From the NCBI RefSeq assembly GCF_000733725.1, contig NZ_JMQM01000001.1, positions 1,612,001-1,676,000 of the forward strand: a stretch of DNA of 64,000 nt, read 5' to 3'. A program made the translations under genes and the position numbers. Every line of letters starts with the position of its first letter. Position 1 is the first letter of the stretch. Below the pieces are notes generated by a model that was given only the letters and a program-made list of their open reading frames with translations, did no database searches and had not been told where the DNA came from. Shown here in pieces: positions 5,155 to 22,283 of this stretch. The DNA comes from Nitratireductor basaltis. GTDB lineage: Bacteria > Pseudomonadota > Alphaproteobacteria > Rhizobiales > Rhizobiaceae.

Positions 5155-5490
5155 CTATTCGTGGCCTGCAGGCACTTGCCGGGTGCAGCAGTCATCGAGG
5201 AAATGGTTCATGCGGGCGCGGGTTTCATCCAGCACGCGTCTGTTGATCGTGTAGCGCGAGCGGGGCCGCTCCTGCCGGTAATCGACCAGCCCTGCTTCCT
5301 GAAGTATCTTCAGATGCTGTGACACGGTCGATTGGGCAAGACCTACACGACCGACCACATCCTTGCAGCAACACGCGTCCTGCGCGGCAAGCTGCTGCAG
5401 GATTGCCAGACGGGCAGGATGGGCCATGGCCGCGAAGCGGCGGGCCAGCACCTGATCCTGCTTCGGATTTGGGGTTACATGTCCATTCAT
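5155..5490 (-). CDS. ArsR/SmtB-family transcriptional repressor
   Basis: A 111-aa winged-helix regulator. The recognition helix region is GLAQSTVSQHLKILQEAGLV, followed by the wing (YRQERPRSRYTI). A cluster of three cysteines in DACCCKDVV sits where classical ArsR has ELCVCDL, and a further Cys pair lies near the C-terminus (DDCCTRQ); both are candidate metal or metalloid ligands. It is first in an operon with the Atm1-type exporter. The ATG at 5488-5490 has no Shine-Dalgarno upstream and lies inside a perfect inverted repeat, so the message may be leaderless and autoregulated. No other in-frame ATG occurs before residue 22. The inducer is inferred as a thiophilic metal or As/Sb. Confidence 0.9.
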   Translation of the reverse strand: MNGHVTPNPKQDQVLARRFAAMAHPARLAILQQLAAQDACCCKDVVGRVGLAQSTVSQHLKILQEAGLVDYRQERPRSRYTINRRVLDETRARMNHFLDDCCTRQVPAGHE

Positions 5491-5515
5491 CGTAGATCGA
5501 CGATATACGATGAAT
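5485..5515. promoter_or_regulatory. Perfect inverted repeat, putative ArsR operator covering its own start codon
   Basis: ATTCATCGTA (5485-5494) is repeated inverted as TACGATGAAT (5506-5515) with an 11-base spacer. A second, inner repeat ATCGT/ACGAT (5489-5493 and 5500-5504) is nested in it. The left arm contains the arsR start codon. Position, symmetry and an adjacent ArsR gene make this the obvious autoregulatory operator. Confidence 0.75.
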
Positions 5516-5528
5516 TATGCGGTTACAA
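5500..5528 (-). promoter_or_regulatory. Candidate promoter of the arsR-ABC exporter operon
   Basis: On the minus strand TTGTAA (5523-5528) stands 17 bases before TATCGT (5500-5505), or 15 before TATATC. Transcription from here would begin within a few bases of the arsR ATG, consistent with a leaderless transcript, and the -10 element lies within the operator. Confidence 0.45.
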
Positions 5529-5560
5529 GAAACGCTGCGCCTTTGCGACGAATCTCATCC

Positions 5561-7549
5561 TCAATTGGGTGAGTTGCCTCTACGCCGCTCCTGGATGACC
5601 GACAGATCAGCGGGTTCGCCCTCTGCGCTCTCGGCGGGCAATGCGAAAACCTGACCGGGCCAGATGAGGTCGGGATCGCGAATCTGGTCCTGATTGGCGA
5701 GGTAGATGGTCGTGTACCGCAACCCGCGGCCATAGACACGCCGGGAGATGTGCCACAGCGTATCGCCTCGGCGGATGATCACCGCACCATCGACCGGCTG
5801 GAGGGCGGGTGCAGTGGTTTCAGACATGGATGCGGAAGGTGAGCCCGCGTTGGCAGTATCTTCGGAGGTGTTGGAACCGTCTGCAGCAACCGCAGCCATT
5901 TCCCGATCTGTAGCCTCAATGCCTGTTGCACCAGATGCTGCAGCATCGGCTGAAGTATCTGCAGCTTCTCCAGACCCGTCGGAACTGTTGGCGGTCTCCT
6001 GCTCCTCAACCGGCATTACCGGGTCAGATTCTGCGGTAGAAGATGCAGCGCCAAACGGGTCTTGCCCGCCAGCAGAACCGCTGTCGCCGGTTGCGCCGGC
6101 TTGTGCCCGGTCTCCGCTCTCATTGTCGGCAGAGGCCGTATCACTTTGCGAAGTGGATTGTGGCGCGGAGGCGACGGCAGCGACATGGCTGCCCGATTCA
6201 CGGGTGAAGGGCACGGCAGCACGCGCGATGACTTCGGCTCCGTCCGCTCCTATCACGTCCACGCGTACGGTGTAGTTGCCGACCGGTATCTCCCTCCTGG
6301 CGTCAACGAGGAAGTGTCCGTCAGGGCCCGCTTCGGACTGGCCTATCAGCATGTCGTCGAAATAGACCCTCACCGTTGCGCCCTTGGCGGCACGTCCGGC
6401 GACGAATACCTGTTCACCGTCGATTTCGACCGCTTCTATGAAGGGCATCACCGACAGGGTGGTGTCATCAGGCAGACCCGTGGCCTGTGCCGGACCAACC
6501 GCCGCGCGCGCAGCGGTATCATCACCGGCACTCGTCGCGGCAGCCATTTCGCGCGTTTCATCCGTAGCGGCATCACTGTCCTTCAGACCGGAAGCGGTCT
6601 GCTCATCCACAGCATCAGCTCCAACCTGCGCTTGTGCCGTTTCGGTGTTGACCTGGGGCTGCGCTGTTTCGTCAGCGGTGGAACCGGCATCGGATGACTG
6701 CGCAACCTGAGCTCGCGCATCCGTTTCGCCTGTTTCTGCAGACGAAGTGCCTTGTGAAGCGGCCACTTCCTCTTCACCACCCGCATTCTGCGCACTGCGG
6801 TCGAGAACCGCCTGCTGTTCGCCTTCGGCGGAGGTGGCTTGAGAGCTGTCAGCGGTTTCGGTGGTTGCAGCATCGCTGCTCGCGCCTGTGGATCCACCGT
6901 CACCTGGCTGATGGGCGACAGGCTTGGGCGCCTCGGGACGCGAGACAACGCGCGTGGGAGCCCCCGGCTCCTGTACCATCGCCAAGACCTGGCCGCGGTC
7001 ATCTTCAGGGATGGACACGATCGCCGTTTCGACGGAAGTGGCAGCCAGCTTGTCGGGACTCGTGGAACGAAGAACGATATTGTGGTCACCGGCGGAAAGC
7101 GGATCTTCAAGCACAGCCACAAAATCCCCGCTCGGCCCTGAGCGGACCTTTGCGAGCACGCGGGTGCCGGAAAGGACTTCAATCTCGGATTCTGGCGCGG
7201 CATTGCCCGCCACTACGAGGCTGCCGTTCGGTTCGGCACGGACAAGATCGAAGCGGGGGACCGCAACTTCACCGTCCTGCGTGCCCTCGCCTTCAGCTGC
7301 GGCACCGGCGGGATCATCAGCACCTGCATTGTCAGAGGAGGCTTCGCTGCGGTCGGATTTGGCCGTTGTCGTTGAAGCCGGTGCGCCGGATGTACCGCTC
7401 TCGCCCTGATCCTGCGTGGCAGCAACCTGGCTGCGGGCATCGTCTTTATCCAGGAGCGGATCCAGAGTGCCGGTGTAGTAGGCAACGCCAGCCGCACCCA
7501 CGAGTGCACCGAGGACATAAAGCAGTATCTTGATAGGAGCGGTCGGCAT
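5561..7549 (-). CDS. Membrane-anchored LysM protein with two Ig-like domains and acidic linkers
   Basis: A 662-aa envelope protein. Residues 7-25 form one membrane anchor or uncleaved signal. Two similar beta-rich repeats follow, at about 99-162 and 368-435, each with a pattern of a small-residue turn, an EVLSGTR/RVYFDDM strand and a G-x-F-V/L-V strand. They are joined by long low-complexity stretches rich in Ala, Ser, Thr, Glu and Gln. A LysM domain at about 590-638 (RRGDTLWHISRRVYG to WPGQVFALP) should bind peptidoglycan. This architecture is common in Rhizobiales but unnamed. It is likely a periplasmic, cell-wall-tethered protein of unknown role. It is divergent from the LOG gene, with a 197-base shared upstream region. 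Confidence 0.85.
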   Translation of the reverse strand: MPTAPIKILLYVLGALVGAAGVAYYTGTLDPLLDKDDARSQVAATQDQGESGTSGAPASTTTAKSDRSEASSDNAGADDPAGAAAEGEGTQDGEVAVPRFDLVRAEPNGSLVVAGNAAPESEIEVLSGTRVLAKVRSGPSGDFVAVLEDPLSAGDHNIVLRSTSPDKLAATSVETAIVSIPEDDRGQVLAMVQEPGAPTRVVSRPEAPKPVAHQPGDGGSTGASSDAATTETADSSQATSAEGEQQAVLDRSAQNAGGEEEVAASQGTSSAETGETDARAQVAQSSDAGSTADETAQPQVNTETAQAQVGADAVDEQTASGLKDSDAATDETREMAAATSAGDDTAARAAVGPAQATGLPDDTTLSVMPFIEAVEIDGEQVFVAGRAAKGATVRVYFDDMLIGQSEAGPDGHFLVDARREIPVGNYTVRVDVIGADGAEVIARAAVPFTRESGSHVAAVASAPQSTSQSDTASADNESGDRAQAGATGDSGSAGGQDPFGAASSTAESDPVMPVEEQETANSSDGSGEAADTSADAAASGATGIEATDREMAAVAADGSNTSEDTANAGSPSASMSETTAPALQPVDGAVIIRRGDTLWHISRRVYGRGLRYTTIYLANQDQIRDPDLIWPGQVFALPAESAEGEPADLSVIQERRRGNSPN

Positions 7550-18648: not shown

Positions 18649-20109
18649 TCAGCGCCCGGCCCTTTCCAGGCGGTCAAGGAACCACTGGGTCAGCTTCACC
18701 CAGACTTCGTCTTTTTCGCCGGAATCCTCGCAGCCATGTTCAAGATTGGGGTTGTCGTTGACCTCGATCACGAAGACGCCATCCGGAGTTTCCTTGAGAT
18801 CCACGCCATAAAGCCCGTCACCGATGCAGCGCGCCGCGCGCACGGCGATGTCCACCACATGCTCGGGCGTTTCGGCCAGGGTGAAGGCGCGGAACCCGCC
18901 TTCATCCGGCTTGCCGCGACGGTCATGATTGACGATCTGCCAATGTTTCTTGGCCATGAGATATTGGACGGCAAACAGAGGCTTTCCCCCCAGCACCCCG
19001 ATGCGCCAGTCGAAATCGGTCGGCATGTATTTTTGTGCGATCAGGAGGTCGGAGCCTTCGAGCCATTTGGTAGCCAGTTTCTGAAGCTCCTCCATGTTCG
19101 CGGCTTTCTTCACGCCGCGCGAGAACGCGCTGTCGGGGATCTTGAGGACGAGCGGAAAGCCGAGCTTGTCTGCTGCATTCTGAAGATCGACCTGCCCTGA
19201 AATCATGACCGTCGGGGGTACCGGCACACGATGCGCGGCCATCAGCTCGTTCAGATAGACCTTGTTGGTGCAGCGGATCATCGACAGCGGATCGTCGATG
19301 ACGGGCATGCCTTCCTGTTCTGCCCGACGGGCGAAGCGATAGGTATGATTGGAGATCGAGGTGGTTTCGCGGATGAAGAGCGCATCGAAATTTGCCAGCC
19401 GCGCCAAATCCTTCTTGCCGATCGGCTCGATTTCAACGCCCATCTTTTCGGCAATACGCGACCAGTGTTTCAGTGAACTCACAGATGACGGCGGCAGTTC
19501 TTCCTGCGGGTCGATCAGCGTGGCGAACGTATATCGCGCGGGCGTGCGTGCCTTCTTGTCGCGCCACTGGCGGCTCGTATAGGTATCGAGACTTTCCACG
19601 AAACGCGTTTTTTCTTCATCCTTCATCCGCGCGAGCGGAAGGAACCCGATCTTCCTGATTGTTGCCCATTCCCCCTCCTGGATCGCGACCTCGAGGGCGG
19701 GAGCGCGAAACCAGTCGAACAGAAGCCGTGCGAAGCGGTCCCATGCTTTGGTCGGGCCAATGCCGAAAAAGACCGAAACGCTCTGCGGAAAGCTGCCACC
19801 GATATCCTTGCGACAGCGATTGAGCGCCTGCTCAAGCTCGGGCAGTGCGTTCTCGTAAAGCTTGCGCGCGGACAGGTCGATGAGTGTCTCGACGGACGGA
19901 ATGACCTTGTGGCCGCGGGAACTTGCCAGCAGCGAGGCGTAATAGCCGCGGCTTTGATAGCTGAAGCTGCTTGAAAGATTGATGATCTTTGGAGACTGGC
20001 CGCGAAACAGCGAGGGATGGGCCAGATAGTCCTTGCTCGTGATGATCTTGTGCGGGGTGGCGGTCTGGTCGAGATCGCCCGGTCGGCTTGTAAGAATGAC
20101 CCAGCTCAT
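18649..20109 (-). CDS. RimK-like ATP-grasp ligase
   Basis: A 486-aa protein with a family-specific N-terminal domain (residues 1 to about 240) and a C-terminal ATP-grasp domain. ATP-grasp landmarks are FIRETTSISNHTYRFARRAE, VIDDPLSMIRCTNKVYLNEL, LKIPDSAFSRGVKK, YMPTDFDWRIGVLGGKPLF and the metal site VIEVNDNPNLEHG. RimK-type enzymes form amide bonds by adding an amino acid such as glutamate to a carboxyl end. This longer form lies in a translationally coupled pair with a GNAT/C39 fusion protein (ATGA, 20106-20109). The pair is conserved in proteobacteria and has been proposed to modify peptides or make small peptides. The start is the ATG at 20109; upstream codons belong to the neighbour. Confidence 0.88.
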   Translation of the reverse strand: MSWVILTSRPGDLDQTATPHKIITSKDYLAHPSLFRGQSPKIINLSSSFSYQSRGYYASLLASSRGHKVIPSVETLIDLSARKLYENALPELEQALNRCRKDIGGSFPQSVSVFFGIGPTKAWDRFARLLFDWFRAPALEVAIQEGEWATIRKIGFLPLARMKDEEKTRFVESLDTYTSRQWRDKKARTPARYTFATLIDPQEELPPSSVSSLKHWSRIAEKMGVEIEPIGKKDLARLANFDALFIRETTSISNHTYRFARRAEQEGMPVIDDPLSMIRCTNKVYLNELMAAHRVPVPPTVMISGQVDLQNAADKLGFPLVLKIPDSAFSRGVKKAANMEELQKLATKWLEGSDLLIAQKYMPTDFDWRIGVLGGKPLFAVQYLMAKKHWQIVNHDRRGKPDEGGFRAFTLAETPEHVVDIAVRAARCIGDGLYGVDLKETPDGVFVIEVNDNPNLEHGCEDSGEKDEVWVKLTQWFLDRLERAGR

Positions 20110-21212
20110 TTGGCGTCTGCATCTCCCAGTACCACGGCGGCGCGCAGATTGTTCTGACCGAAACGCGCCATGCGCATGAAAATCTCGTTGGGGATGGGAA
20201 TGGCAGCCGCATCCGATGCCGTTTCCCCCCTCTCGTCCTCCACCCAAGGATCGTGGACCACTATGTGTTCCGCGTCGTGGCCGATCGCCAGAACCCAATG
20301 CGGCACCTTCTTGCCGAACATCAGGTAACCGCTGATCAGCACCGCCACGACCTTGTTCGACCCAAGGGCATTGGTGATGTCATCCAGCGAAAATGCGCGG
20401 CGATGGGTTTCGATCCCGAGAGCTTGCGCTCTCTTGAGAAAATCCTTCTGTGCAAGGCGCATGACACGCTGCTTTTCCGGAGCGCGCACAGACTCCAGGA
20501 AGAGTGGTCCGTTGCGCGAAACATAGACCGAGGCCGACAATCCATGTTCGGCTGCGGCGACAGCAAGGCCGAAAGGCTCGCATCCACCGGGACCGGACAG
20601 CATGAAAACGGTTGTTGCTTCTCGCCAGAGACGAATCTCGAACACCGGATCGGGTTTGAAATCCTGCTTGAACCGGGCCATGGCCATCATCAGGCAGCAA
20701 GGACCACAGGTGAACTCTTCGCGCTGCTCGTAGTAGGGCACGGGCTGGGTGCTGATCGGTTCGCCCCGCAGCAGTTTTTCGAAGCGCAGGGCCGGCGAGC
20801 CGTCTTCGTAATATTGCTCGTCGCGCCTGAAACGGCGGAAGCCGGCACGCTCGTAGAGGTCGATTGCGCGGGCATTGTCCTCGCGCACCTCCAGCCTGAG
20901 CACAAGACGCTCATGGCCATAGGCGTCGCGCTCCGCTGCAGCCAGCAATGCCTGCCCAAGCCCCTTCATCCCTGCATTATTGGCGACGGCTATGGAGTAG
21001 AGGCGCGCCACTCCGCTTCCCGCCCGGTAAAGCACCAGGCAATAGCCCAGCACCTGCCCGCGATTGTCCGCAACGAGAAGACTCGCACTGTCACTGTCTA
21101 TGTGTTGGCGAAACGAGCGGCGGGATATCCGGTCGGTGGAAAAGACACTGTTTTCGATCTGCAGGAGCGCATCGATGTCTGATGCGCGTGCCGGACGTAT
21201 GTCGGCATTCAT
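20106..21212 (-). CDS. GNAT acetyltransferase fused to a C39-like cysteine peptidase
   Basis: A 368-aa fusion. Residues 3 to about 150 form a GNAT domain (IRPARASDIDALLQIEN, then the RLYSIAVANNAGMKGLGQALL acetyl-CoA loop region, written here in part). Residues 160-365 are a C39-like papain-fold peptidase: Q163, C169 in FTCGPCC, H305 in PHWVLAIG and D321 in VVHDPW form a complete catalytic set. No secretion signal or transporter is attached, so it likely works in the cytoplasm. It is first in the pair with the ATP-grasp ligase. The ATG at 21212 is preferred over a TTG at 21245. Acetylation and peptide cleavage in one chain suggests processing of a peptide product; the substrate is unknown. Confidence 0.88.
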   Translation of the reverse strand: MNADIRPARASDIDALLQIENSVFSTDRISRRSFRQHIDSDSASLLVADNRGQVLGYCLVLYRAGSGVARLYSIAVANNAGMKGLGQALLAAAERDAYGHERLVLRLEVREDNARAIDLYERAGFRRFRRDEQYYEDGSPALRFEKLLRGEPISTQPVPYYEQREEFTCGPCCLMMAMARFKQDFKPDPVFEIRLWREATTVFMLSGPGGCEPFGLAVAAAEHGLSASVYVSRNGPLFLESVRAPEKQRVMRLAQKDFLKRAQALGIETHRRAFSLDDITNALGSNKVVAVLISGYLMFGKKVPHWVLAIGHDAEHIVVHDPWVEDERGETASDAAAIPIPNEIFMRMARFGQNNLRAAVVLGDADAK

Positions 21213-21413
21213 TTGGATGCGGATTGCCTCGCGTTGCTTCCTCAATCCTTATCACCGCCGAATGGGCGCGGGAATTGAGAAAATCACGCCGTGACATAAT
21301 TTTGATGGAAGAAGCGACCGCACGCGGTTTCAATGACAGCCCATATCTGTCAAACGGCGGCGAATATGAGCCTGCGTCAAAGCGGGCAGTTCAAGCGAAG
21401 GAGGCGGGATCCG

Positions 21414-22283
21414 ATGGAATTCGACACAGCGCAGATCATGACAGCAGGCGAGACGATGGTGGCAGCGGCAAGCGCCTTCGTCGTCAGCTACGCCTTTTCG
21501 ATTCTCGGCGCCATTGTCCTGATCATCGCCGGCTACATCGTTGCCGGTTTCGTCGAGCGCTCACTGGCGAAAACCTTGGGCCGCATGCGCTCCTTCGATC
21601 AGACGCTCTGCCGGTTTCTCTCGAAAACGGCCCGCTACGCGGTTCTCATTCTTGTGGGTGTCACGGTTCTTGCCCAGTTCGGCGTGCAAACAGCCAGCAT
21701 TCTGGCGGCTCTTGGTGCCGCCGGCCTTGCCATCGGCCTGGCGCTGCAAGGCACGCTGCAGAACGTTGCCGCCGGCATCATGCTTCTGGTCCTGAAGCCG
21801 TTTCGTGTCGGTGAATATGTGGACGCAGGTGGCACGGCCGGAACGATCGTGGAGATCGGCCTCTTCGCAACGGAGCTTAAGGCGATCGACGGGCTTTATG
21901 TTCTGGCGCCCAACAGCGAACTCTGGAACAAATCCGTCATCAACTACTCGCGCAACAAGGATCGTCGCAACGATCTTGTTATCGGCATCGGCTATGACGA
22001 CGACATCGATCTCGCGCAAGAAACCATGATGAGTCTCGCGCAAAATGACGAGCGTGTGCTGGCAGATCCGGAGCCCGCCACTTTCGTTTCCGAACTTGGC
22101 GACAATGCCGTGAACGTGACACTGCGCTATTGGACGGCAACGCCGGACTGGTGGCAGACGCGGCTTGATCTGACAAAGGCCGCCAAGAAGGCTTTCGACG
22201 AGAAAGGCATATCCATTCCATTTCCCCAGCGCGACCTGCATCTGATCACGGCAGCCGCAGAGGTGAAAACGACCGCGGCTTGA
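21414..22283 (+). CDS. mscS: MscS-family mechanosensitive channel
   Basis: A 289-aa small-conductance channel protein. Three membrane helices cover residues 15-115. The pore-lining TM3 motif is ALGAAGLAIGLALQGTLQNV, followed by the hinge AAGIMLLVLKPFRVGEYV and the cytoplasmic beta and alpha/beta domains. It should open under osmotic downshock. The start is set by AAGGAGG at 21398-21404, nine bases before the ATG. It is divergent from the GNAT/C39 gene with a 200-base gap. Length and motifs match the E. coli MscS size class. Confidence 0.93.
   Translation: MEFDTAQIMTAGETMVAAASAFVVSYAFSILGAIVLIIAGYIVAGFVERSLAKTLGRMRSFDQTLCRFLSKTARYAVLILVGVTVLAQFGVQTASILAALGAAGLAIGLALQGTLQNVAAGIMLLVLKPFRVGEYVDAGGTAGTIVEIGLFATELKAIDGLYVLAPNSELWNKSVINYSRNKDRRNDLVIGIGYDDDIDLAQETMMSLAQNDERVLADPEPATFVSELGDNAVNVTLRYWTATPDWWQTRLDLTKAAKKAFDEKGISIPFPQRDLHLITAAAEVKTTAA

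Follow-up and report, generated by a model that had tools for sequence, protein, structure and literature searches.

Two adjacent genes of Nitratireductor basaltis encode an RLAN-domain ligase of the RimK-like ATP-grasp type (P0001) and an acetyltransferase of the GNAT family that is fused to a C39-like peptidase (P0002). They lie on contig NZ_JMQM01000001.1 in a stretch of 64,000 nucleotides, hereafter called the window. Comparison with related loci reveals that the constant partners are the ligase and the GNAT. The peptidase is not among them and is an optional part of the module. We tentatively favor a role for these genes as a compact "ligate, cap and optionally trim" peptide module, whose product would most likely be a small N-acetylated peptide assembled from free amino acids. 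An earlier reading of the DNA, made without database searches (the sequence-only reading), had grouped amide-bond formation, acetyl transfer, and cysteine proteolysis as one unit of three activities. The ligase–GNAT half of that unit is real and conserved, but the peptidase occurs in only some of the genomes that carry RLAN. The status of the GNAT as constant partner is beyond what a reading of a single sequence could see. A constant core of two enzymes makes the function testable with two purified proteins, ATP, acetyl-CoA, and amino acids.

The GNAT and the ligase are constant partners

RLAN and DUF3335, the Pfam family of the peptidase domain, were located in two genome samples. In 150 genomes of the order, RLAN is present in 30 and DUF3335 in 15, all 15 of which carry RLAN. 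In 349 genomes of the phylum, the corresponding counts are 62 and 52, with both families in 51. The sole genome in the two samples that has DUF3335 and no RLAN (G156) also has no cognate GNAT beside its DUF3335 gene. None of 14 named control genomes has RLAN, and one, Methanosarcina acetivorans, has DUF3335. Because RLAN reaches these frequencies in both samples, the product of the pair would be common.

The surroundings of the ligase gene were compared at 155 loci. A named genome collection yielded at least 590 relatives, and the best 80, which lean toward Alphaproteobacteria, were kept. The other 75 stretches (L105–L179) were chosen by hand and cover every one of the 26 sampled genomes that have RLAN and lack DUF3335, so the fraction of C39-bearing loci among them is biased low. 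Five loci (L151, L154, L164, L165, and L166) contain no single complete ligase and were dropped, leaving 150. A cognate GNAT gene lies within 3.5 kb of the ligase, midpoint to midpoint, in 148 of these, 88 times fused to C39 and 60 times unfused. In the named set, the GNAT is present at 79 of 80 loci and C39 at 51. Adjacency in relatives, whose rarity would have spoken against the sequence-only reading, is therefore the rule. One exception is L152, whose genome carries its GNAT–C39 gene on another contig (L151), and the other is L252, from a metagenome-assembled genome (MAG) of Sulfuricurvum.

As a control, the 150 loci were scanned for GNAT matches scoring 80 bits or more. All 149 lie no further than 2.5 kb from the ligase, and the remaining 1.17 Mb contains none. 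The profile used favors this type of GNAT because it was built from ligase neighbors; both the GNAT and the C39 profiles derive from these same loci. In four loci (L110, L113, L119, and L160), GNAT, RLAN, and ATP-grasp are fused in a single chain. Three gene orders occur (121 tandem with the GNAT first, 23 divergent, and 4 tandem with the ligase first), which require at least three changes on the tree. The linkage has therefore been kept through rearrangement. Distances among GNATs correlate with those among ligases with an r of 0.53 (124 loci; the highest of 999 permutations reached 0.18), a co-divergence that carries no weight because shared ancestry alone could produce it.

Of 44 plasmid records with a match, 11 contain most of the query. 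Large Azospirillum replicons carry full-length RLAN ligases, as does a 9-kb Legionella adelaidensis record, where the gene is annotated "RimK family protein."

The peptidase is optional

P0002 matches PF11814 (DUF3335, "Peptidase_C39 like family") with 264 bits (cut-off 25). The complete set of catalytic residues that had been read from the window, Q163/C169/H305/D321, recurs in relatives. All 96 related C39 domains compared, near-copies included, have the Q, C, and H; at position 321, 91 of them have D and 5 have E. Comparison by sequence with the Protein Data Bank (PDB) gave weak matches only, the best with an E value of 0.009. The five loci with E at position 321 (L153, L154, L170, L174, and L176) are the same five that have a DUF2817-cluster gene nearby, and they may simply be one lineage.

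DUF3335 is present in 51 of the 62 RLAN genomes of the phylum sample and in 15 of the 30 of the order sample. A quick ligase tree was made from 126 of the 150 ligases after near-copies were thinned, and the presence of C39 was scored for 124 (the two without a GNAT were left unscored). On this tree the C39 label changes at least 23 times, and 18 changes are forced by well-supported branches. Chelativorans, the closest named relative among the matches listed (84%–85% ligase identity), has the GNAT without C39. When 20 named genomes were searched in full for DUF3335, all four with C39 beside the ligase were recovered, and none was found in the 16 that lack C39 at this place; these 16 were drawn from 29 named peptidase-less loci, and some are incomplete MAGs.

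A GNAT tree needs only six changes of the C39 label (two forced) compared with 23 on the ligase tree. This difference could mean that two GNAT types were swapped when C39 disappeared, but the GNAT tree was built from 144 columns, and stars mark 27 of its 121 branches. At ligase identities of 0.85–0.90, the median GNAT identity is 0.54 in 26 pairs of mixed C39 status versus 0.76 in 157 C39 pairs, and at 0.95 the mixed median is 0.58, in effect from one pair; the mixed pairs stem from few loci, mainly L200 and Chelativorans. Two observations argue against a swap. In L200 and L201, where the C39 stretch is absent, the alignment continues colinearly into the GNAT, and 9 of 54 stand-alone GNATs have a fused GNAT as their nearest neighbor. 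L201 and L133, whose contigs are equally long, are probably from one genome.

Detached copies of the peptidase were also seen. Loci L164 (two copies), L165, and L166 have DUF3335 with neither a full cognate GNAT nor RLAN nearby, and the Q, C, H, and D residues are kept. Beside one of the L164 copies lies a weak GNAT remnant of 38 bits. In genome G154 (L154 and L155), a GNAT–C39 gene is located ∼2.1 Mb from a GNAT and ligase pair and is possibly a detached eraser.

Structural relatives of the ligase and the GNAT

P0001 matches RLAN (PF14401) with 131.4 bits (cut-off 25) and the RimK family (PF08443) with 40.8 bits (cut-off 21). Structure prediction, which the sequence-only reading had suggested as a check, placed the ATP-grasp part and the GNAT domain among known folds. 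The AlphaFold model of P0001 has a mean predicted local distance difference test (pLDDT) score of 90.2 and a predicted template modeling (pTM) score of 0.61, and because of the latter value the placing of its domains is less sure. Residues ∼193–483 of the model most closely resemble LysX (3vpd; Z 28.4, root-mean-square deviation [rmsd] 2.4 over 268 residues), followed by ArgX with LysW (3vpb; Z 28.0) and RimK entries (Z ∼27). The ligase motifs, including NDNP and DWR, are invariant or near-invariant among relatives. P0001 falls under the curated cut-offs for the RimK S6 ligase and the RimK family (NF007764, 32.9 of 331 bits; TIGR00768, 89.3 of 143.4 bits) and for LysX (TIGR02144, 88.6 of 275.6 bits). 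The fold lists for both models were filled by the ATP-grasp and GNAT domains, and RLAN and C39 were compared with the PDB by sequence. For RLAN, a 26-row profile found no PDB sequence relative at E values up to 1.

P0002 matches the GNAT family (PF00583) with 51.9 bits (cut-off 20.7), and its model has a mean pLDDT of 90.1 and a pTM of 0.85. The nearest folds of its GNAT domain are Ard1 (4pv6; Z 22.2, rmsd 1.8 over 147 residues) and RimI (2cnm; Z 21.9), which are tied, and Foldseek agrees. The best NCBIfam match is also RimI (TIGR01575), at 83.3 bits a narrow miss of the curated 86.4, whereas a separate RimI in the source genome passes with 91.7 bits. All 124 thinned GNATs have E108 and Y135; Y120 is conserved in 90% of the 70 fused proteins and in 96% of the 54 that stand alone. 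From an alignment with the RimI of the same genome, our own reading is that E108 and Y120 probably correspond to Glu103 and Tyr115, which are given as the proton acceptor and donor of RimI in an excerpt of PMC3347575. Thus, the catalytic Glu and Tyr positions of RimI appear to be kept.

No conserved third gene or precursor

Open reading frames (ORFs) of at least 60 amino acids within 6 kb of the 150 ligase loci were clustered, and the conserved third gene for which the sequence-only reading had recommended looking did not emerge. The widest cluster was rejected as a general partner since it reaches only 10 of 51 ligase groups; its representative is EAL/GGDEF-like by eye. DUF2817 and DUF155 were likewise set aside, each being present in only 5 of 75 loci.

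The window had also seemed to lack a precursor peptide gene, and this holds in relatives, where no conserved precursor-like ORF was found among 3053 short ORFs (18–75 amino acids, within 1 kb of the 150 ligase loci). The only short-ORF cluster that spans more than two groups among those listed covers 10 groups and is of low complexity. A graspetide or other system for ribosomally synthesized and post-translationally modified peptides was rejected because no conserved precursor peptide gene stands beside the ligase.

LysX and ArgX, the nearest solved folds of the ligase, differ from it in acting on a small carrier protein, LysW. No conserved neighbor or short ORF near the 150 loci corresponds to a LysW-type carrier gene, and no search of the source genome was aimed at LysW. 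The PADLOC 2023 library of defense systems gave no match for P0001 or P0002.

Some neighbors recur locally. At L132 (5804–7209), in a genome of the same family, genes for a sigma factor whose sigma2 domain is of the PhyR type and for a Pfam-less protein of 263 amino acids precede the pair, and members of both clusters are also found near L144 and L179.

Relation to known and predicted systems

Iyer and colleagues reportedly predicted in 2009 an association of RLAN–RimK with GNAT/DUF3335, and that work may hold part of the present findings. The Pfam note for PF14401 presumably describes the same neighborhood, with RLAN genes beside GNAT–papain fusions. The window pair has the same domains in the same adjacency, with no structural difference, and judged by both Pfam models it is an ordinary member of this predicted system. 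Fusions of PF11814 members to GNATs are mentioned in an excerpt of PMC10318531, the one paper found that names DUF3335, with reference to Iyer et al. (2009). Descriptions of the optional peptidase, of the near-obligate GNAT, or of the RLAN-less viral-class form described below were not found in the open-licence literature. The same literature gave no characterized product for the pair, as had been supposed from the window, although searching by the name RLAN is little informative.

Pairings of a RimK-type ATP-grasp protein with a protease are known from RimK/RimB and RloC/RloA. According to an excerpt of PMC12239564, the RimB protease counteracts RimK, and RimK also makes free poly-glutamate. 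As excerpted, that paper describes RimB and RloA as aspartic (retropepsin-like) rather than C39-like proteases and RloB as an extra membrane protein, and it makes no mention of a GNAT. Pseudomonas PA1766/PA1767 was considered as an RLAN pair and rejected, since the excerpted description puts the ATP-grasp gene in an operon with predicted membrane and exported proteins. By an equation of our own, based on that description, the operon fits the rloABC genes of PMC12239564.

An RLAN-less form in viral-class contigs

A scan of viral contigs gave nine loci, and a second scan again gave seven of those contigs. Eight loci (L274–L281) match the ATP-grasp part only, L281 being truncated where its contig ends. 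RLAN is partly matched in L282, and a trace of it (18 bits) appears in L275/L276. In L277, L278, L279, and L280, a cognate-type GNAT gene (76–133 bits) lies upstream of and overlaps a ligase gene (284–310 amino acids), and there is no peptidase. These pairs occupy locus positions ∼5490–6910 of metagenomic contigs from IMG/VR. No cognate GNAT was found in the viral-class loci L274, L275/L276, and L282.

The pair of L278 lies near an integrase gene, and a baseplate gene is also present in that locus. The few neighbors of L277, L279, and L280 that were scanned matched PHROG families of unknown function and one lipoprotein family, along with weak hits to replication proteins. The label "viral" for these three contigs therefore rests mainly on IMG/VR. 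L274 contains a portal gene and a ribonucleotide reductase. In L275 (4469–9393), the ligase lacks a GNAT and lies between genes for the terminase large subunit and the portal, and it may have a link to phage head assembly. Searching named phages twice yielded three and four records, all partial and distant.

When aligned with the ligase of L278, eight RLAN-less and bacterial ligases each share 35%–43% identity. In the 349 bacterial genomes of the phylum sample, the ligase clade was found at 65 places, all in frames of at least 473 amino acids, and the 62 genomes involved are those that have RLAN; the cut of E 1e-25 in this search would miss remoter RLAN-less ligases.

A broader interpretation, which we regard as unlikely, is that the GNAT and the RimK-type ligase form a minimal mobile machine for making peptides (or capping proteins) with an exchangeable peptidase eraser. 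On this view, phages would have acquired the core alone, lacking RLAN and peptidase, as a means of altering a peptide or protein of the host, and RLAN would be a bacterial targeting part. Its chances are lowered because three of the four viral-class contigs with a pair depend on the IMG/VR listing more than on identified genes. If it is true, then bacteria and phages would share a class that has gone unrecognized, either small peptide metabolites or paired modifications of protein N and C termini. The RLAN-less version offers the smallest form for study, and the optional peptidase provides a natural comparison for turnover.

Proposed function and alternatives

In the proposed peptide module, the RimK/LysX-type ATP-grasp enzyme would activate a carboxylate with ATP and join an amino acid to it, and the RimI-like GNAT would place an acetyl group on the alpha-amino group of an amino acid or short peptide. 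Ligation and acetylation would be needed together, sometimes in one fused chain. Where present, the C39-like domain would hydrolyze or edit the product and thereby act as an adjustable off-switch outside synthesis. These reaction steps, the small-molecule nature of the product, and the action of the peptidase on it are what we infer from the domains and their distribution.

We prefer a small N-acetylated peptide since the two enzymes seem to need no further component and parallel Ngg. This protein acetylates one glutamine and joins a second to yield N-acetylglutaminylglutamine, with both activities in one chain (excerpt of PMC8070244). The likeness lies in the combination of GNAT and ligase activities and in an N-acetylated dipeptide as product. 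The product of the pair would be chemically similar to that of Ngg, yet another compound. The source genome encodes a separate, true Ngg (923.9 bits with TIGR03103, curated cut-off 569), so the pair does not replace it; with the same model, P0002 scores 25.8 bits and P0001 is unlisted. The opposition of RimB to RimK, as given in the excerpted source, is a precedent for a ligase with an eraser and is counted in favor of the peptide module. Also in its favor are the linkage of GNAT and ligase, kept across three gene orders, the single-chain fusions, the viral-class contigs with just these two genes, the lack of a conserved third gene or short ORF, and the repeated changes of the C39 label with Q, C, and H intact wherever the domain is present. 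A further point is that RLAN genomes of the order sample are richer in Ngg (17 of 30 versus 21 of 120 others, Fisher p 3.6e-5). Counted by family, Ngg is found in 9 of 13 RLAN families (p 0.002, assuming 52 families as inferred from group codes).

Several results weigh against this proposal. Ngg, a single chain without RLAN, lacks by eye the YY hairpin of the GNAT. The module ligase profile gives the Ngg of the source genome only a distant score of 10.9 bits. The GNAT profile cannot decide between RimI and Ngg because it scores the two proteins of this genome nearly alike (63.1 versus 58.9 bits), and by blastp P0002 is closer to the RimI (45.8 bits) than to the Ngg (30.0 bits). The enrichment for Ngg ignores ancestry, includes one partial match under the cut-off (G120, 1 of the 17), and may reflect shared ecology. 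Three sampled genomes of one genus (g3) in the same family have RLAN without Ngg. Finally, the closest folds of the GNAT are acetylators of protein N termini (RimI and Ard1), and those of the ligase are enzymes of protein C termini (RimK, LysX, and ArgX).

Modification of protein ends is kept close behind as the main rival, since the closest structural relatives of both enzymes work on protein termini. RimK adds residues to the C terminus of ribosomal protein S6, and RimI acetylates the N terminus of S18. By analogy, the ligase might extend the C terminus of a housekeeping, possibly ribosomal, protein, the GNAT might acetylate an N terminus, and C39 might trim the additions in the way that RimB does for RimK. 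We consider this a serious possibility, though a somewhat doubtful one. Along with the folds and the conserved catalytic Glu/Tyr positions, it is favored by needing no precursor gene and by the presence of such a pair in the phage contig L278, since phage RimI-like GNATs are thought to be likely protein modifiers (excerpt of PMC5512222). However, the source genome already has the other RimI above the curated cut-off and has no RimK-family match at E 1e-35. At the same threshold, no positive link to the RimK family was found (8 of 30 RLAN genomes versus 50 of 120 others, p 0.15). This explanation also requires that one protein be modified at both ends or that there be two targets.

GNATs often detoxify, and the pair might protect its host by modifying a toxic peptide or amino-acid analog from outside. 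The patchy distribution (62 of 349 genomes) and the phage-borne pair are consistent with such a role, but the PADLOC result, the lack of a conserved gene beside the pair, and the fact that an ATP-driven ligase would be an unusual detoxifier make it improbable. Similarly improbable is a system centered on a peptidase that processes or degrades a peptide, with the GNAT and ligase as accessories: The invariant catalytic residues of C39, the ligase-free DUF3335 copies (two in L164, one each in L165 and L166), the GNAT–C39 genes far from a ligase (L151 and L154), and the DUF3335 of M. acetivorans without an RLAN match (presence of a GNAT unchecked) speak for it, but C39 is absent from 11 of 62 and 15 of 30 RLAN genomes that retain the GNAT and ligase, and no genome of the two samples with a GNAT-fused DUF3335 lacked RLAN.

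Gene starts and surroundings of the pair

The two genes are on the minus strand, with the ligase gene downstream from the GNAT–C39 gene, and they share the four bases ATGA as the sequence-only reading had it (Table 1). The ATG starts given here, at 20109 and 21212, were chosen over TTG codons further upstream, at 20298 and 21245, to which mechanically called ORFs extend. Support for the first of these ATG codons comes from the ATGA overlap, which recurs in 49 of the 121 tandem relatives whose GNAT gene lies upstream; of those 121, 4 are single-chain fusions.

Table 1. Features of the ligase and GNAT–peptidase genes in the window
Feature	Position	Strand	Basis
RLAN and RimK-like ATP-grasp ligase P0001, 486 amino acids	18649..20109	−	PF14401 at residues 26–172, PF08443 at residues 282–459
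RLAN domain	19594..20034	−	PF14401 match
ATP-grasp part, residues 193–486, with motifs FDWRIG and NDNP	18652..19533	−	Motifs and LysX/ArgX/RimK fold match
GNAT and C39-like peptidase fusion P0002, 368 amino acids	20106..21212	−	PF00583 and PF11814
RimI/Ard1-like GNAT domain, residues 1–150, constant partner	20763..21212	−	Fold match, conserved E108/Y135
DUF3335/C39-like peptidase domain, residues 155–368, optional	20109..20750	−	Q163/C169/H305 conserved
ATGA stop/start overlap of P0002 and P0001	20106..20109	−	Read on the minus strand

A gene for an MscS-type mechanosensitive channel (21333–22283 of the window, plus strand) adjoins the pair, and proteins of the MscS cluster are also encoded near L111 and L162. 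This neighbor is a weak hint of an osmotic link.

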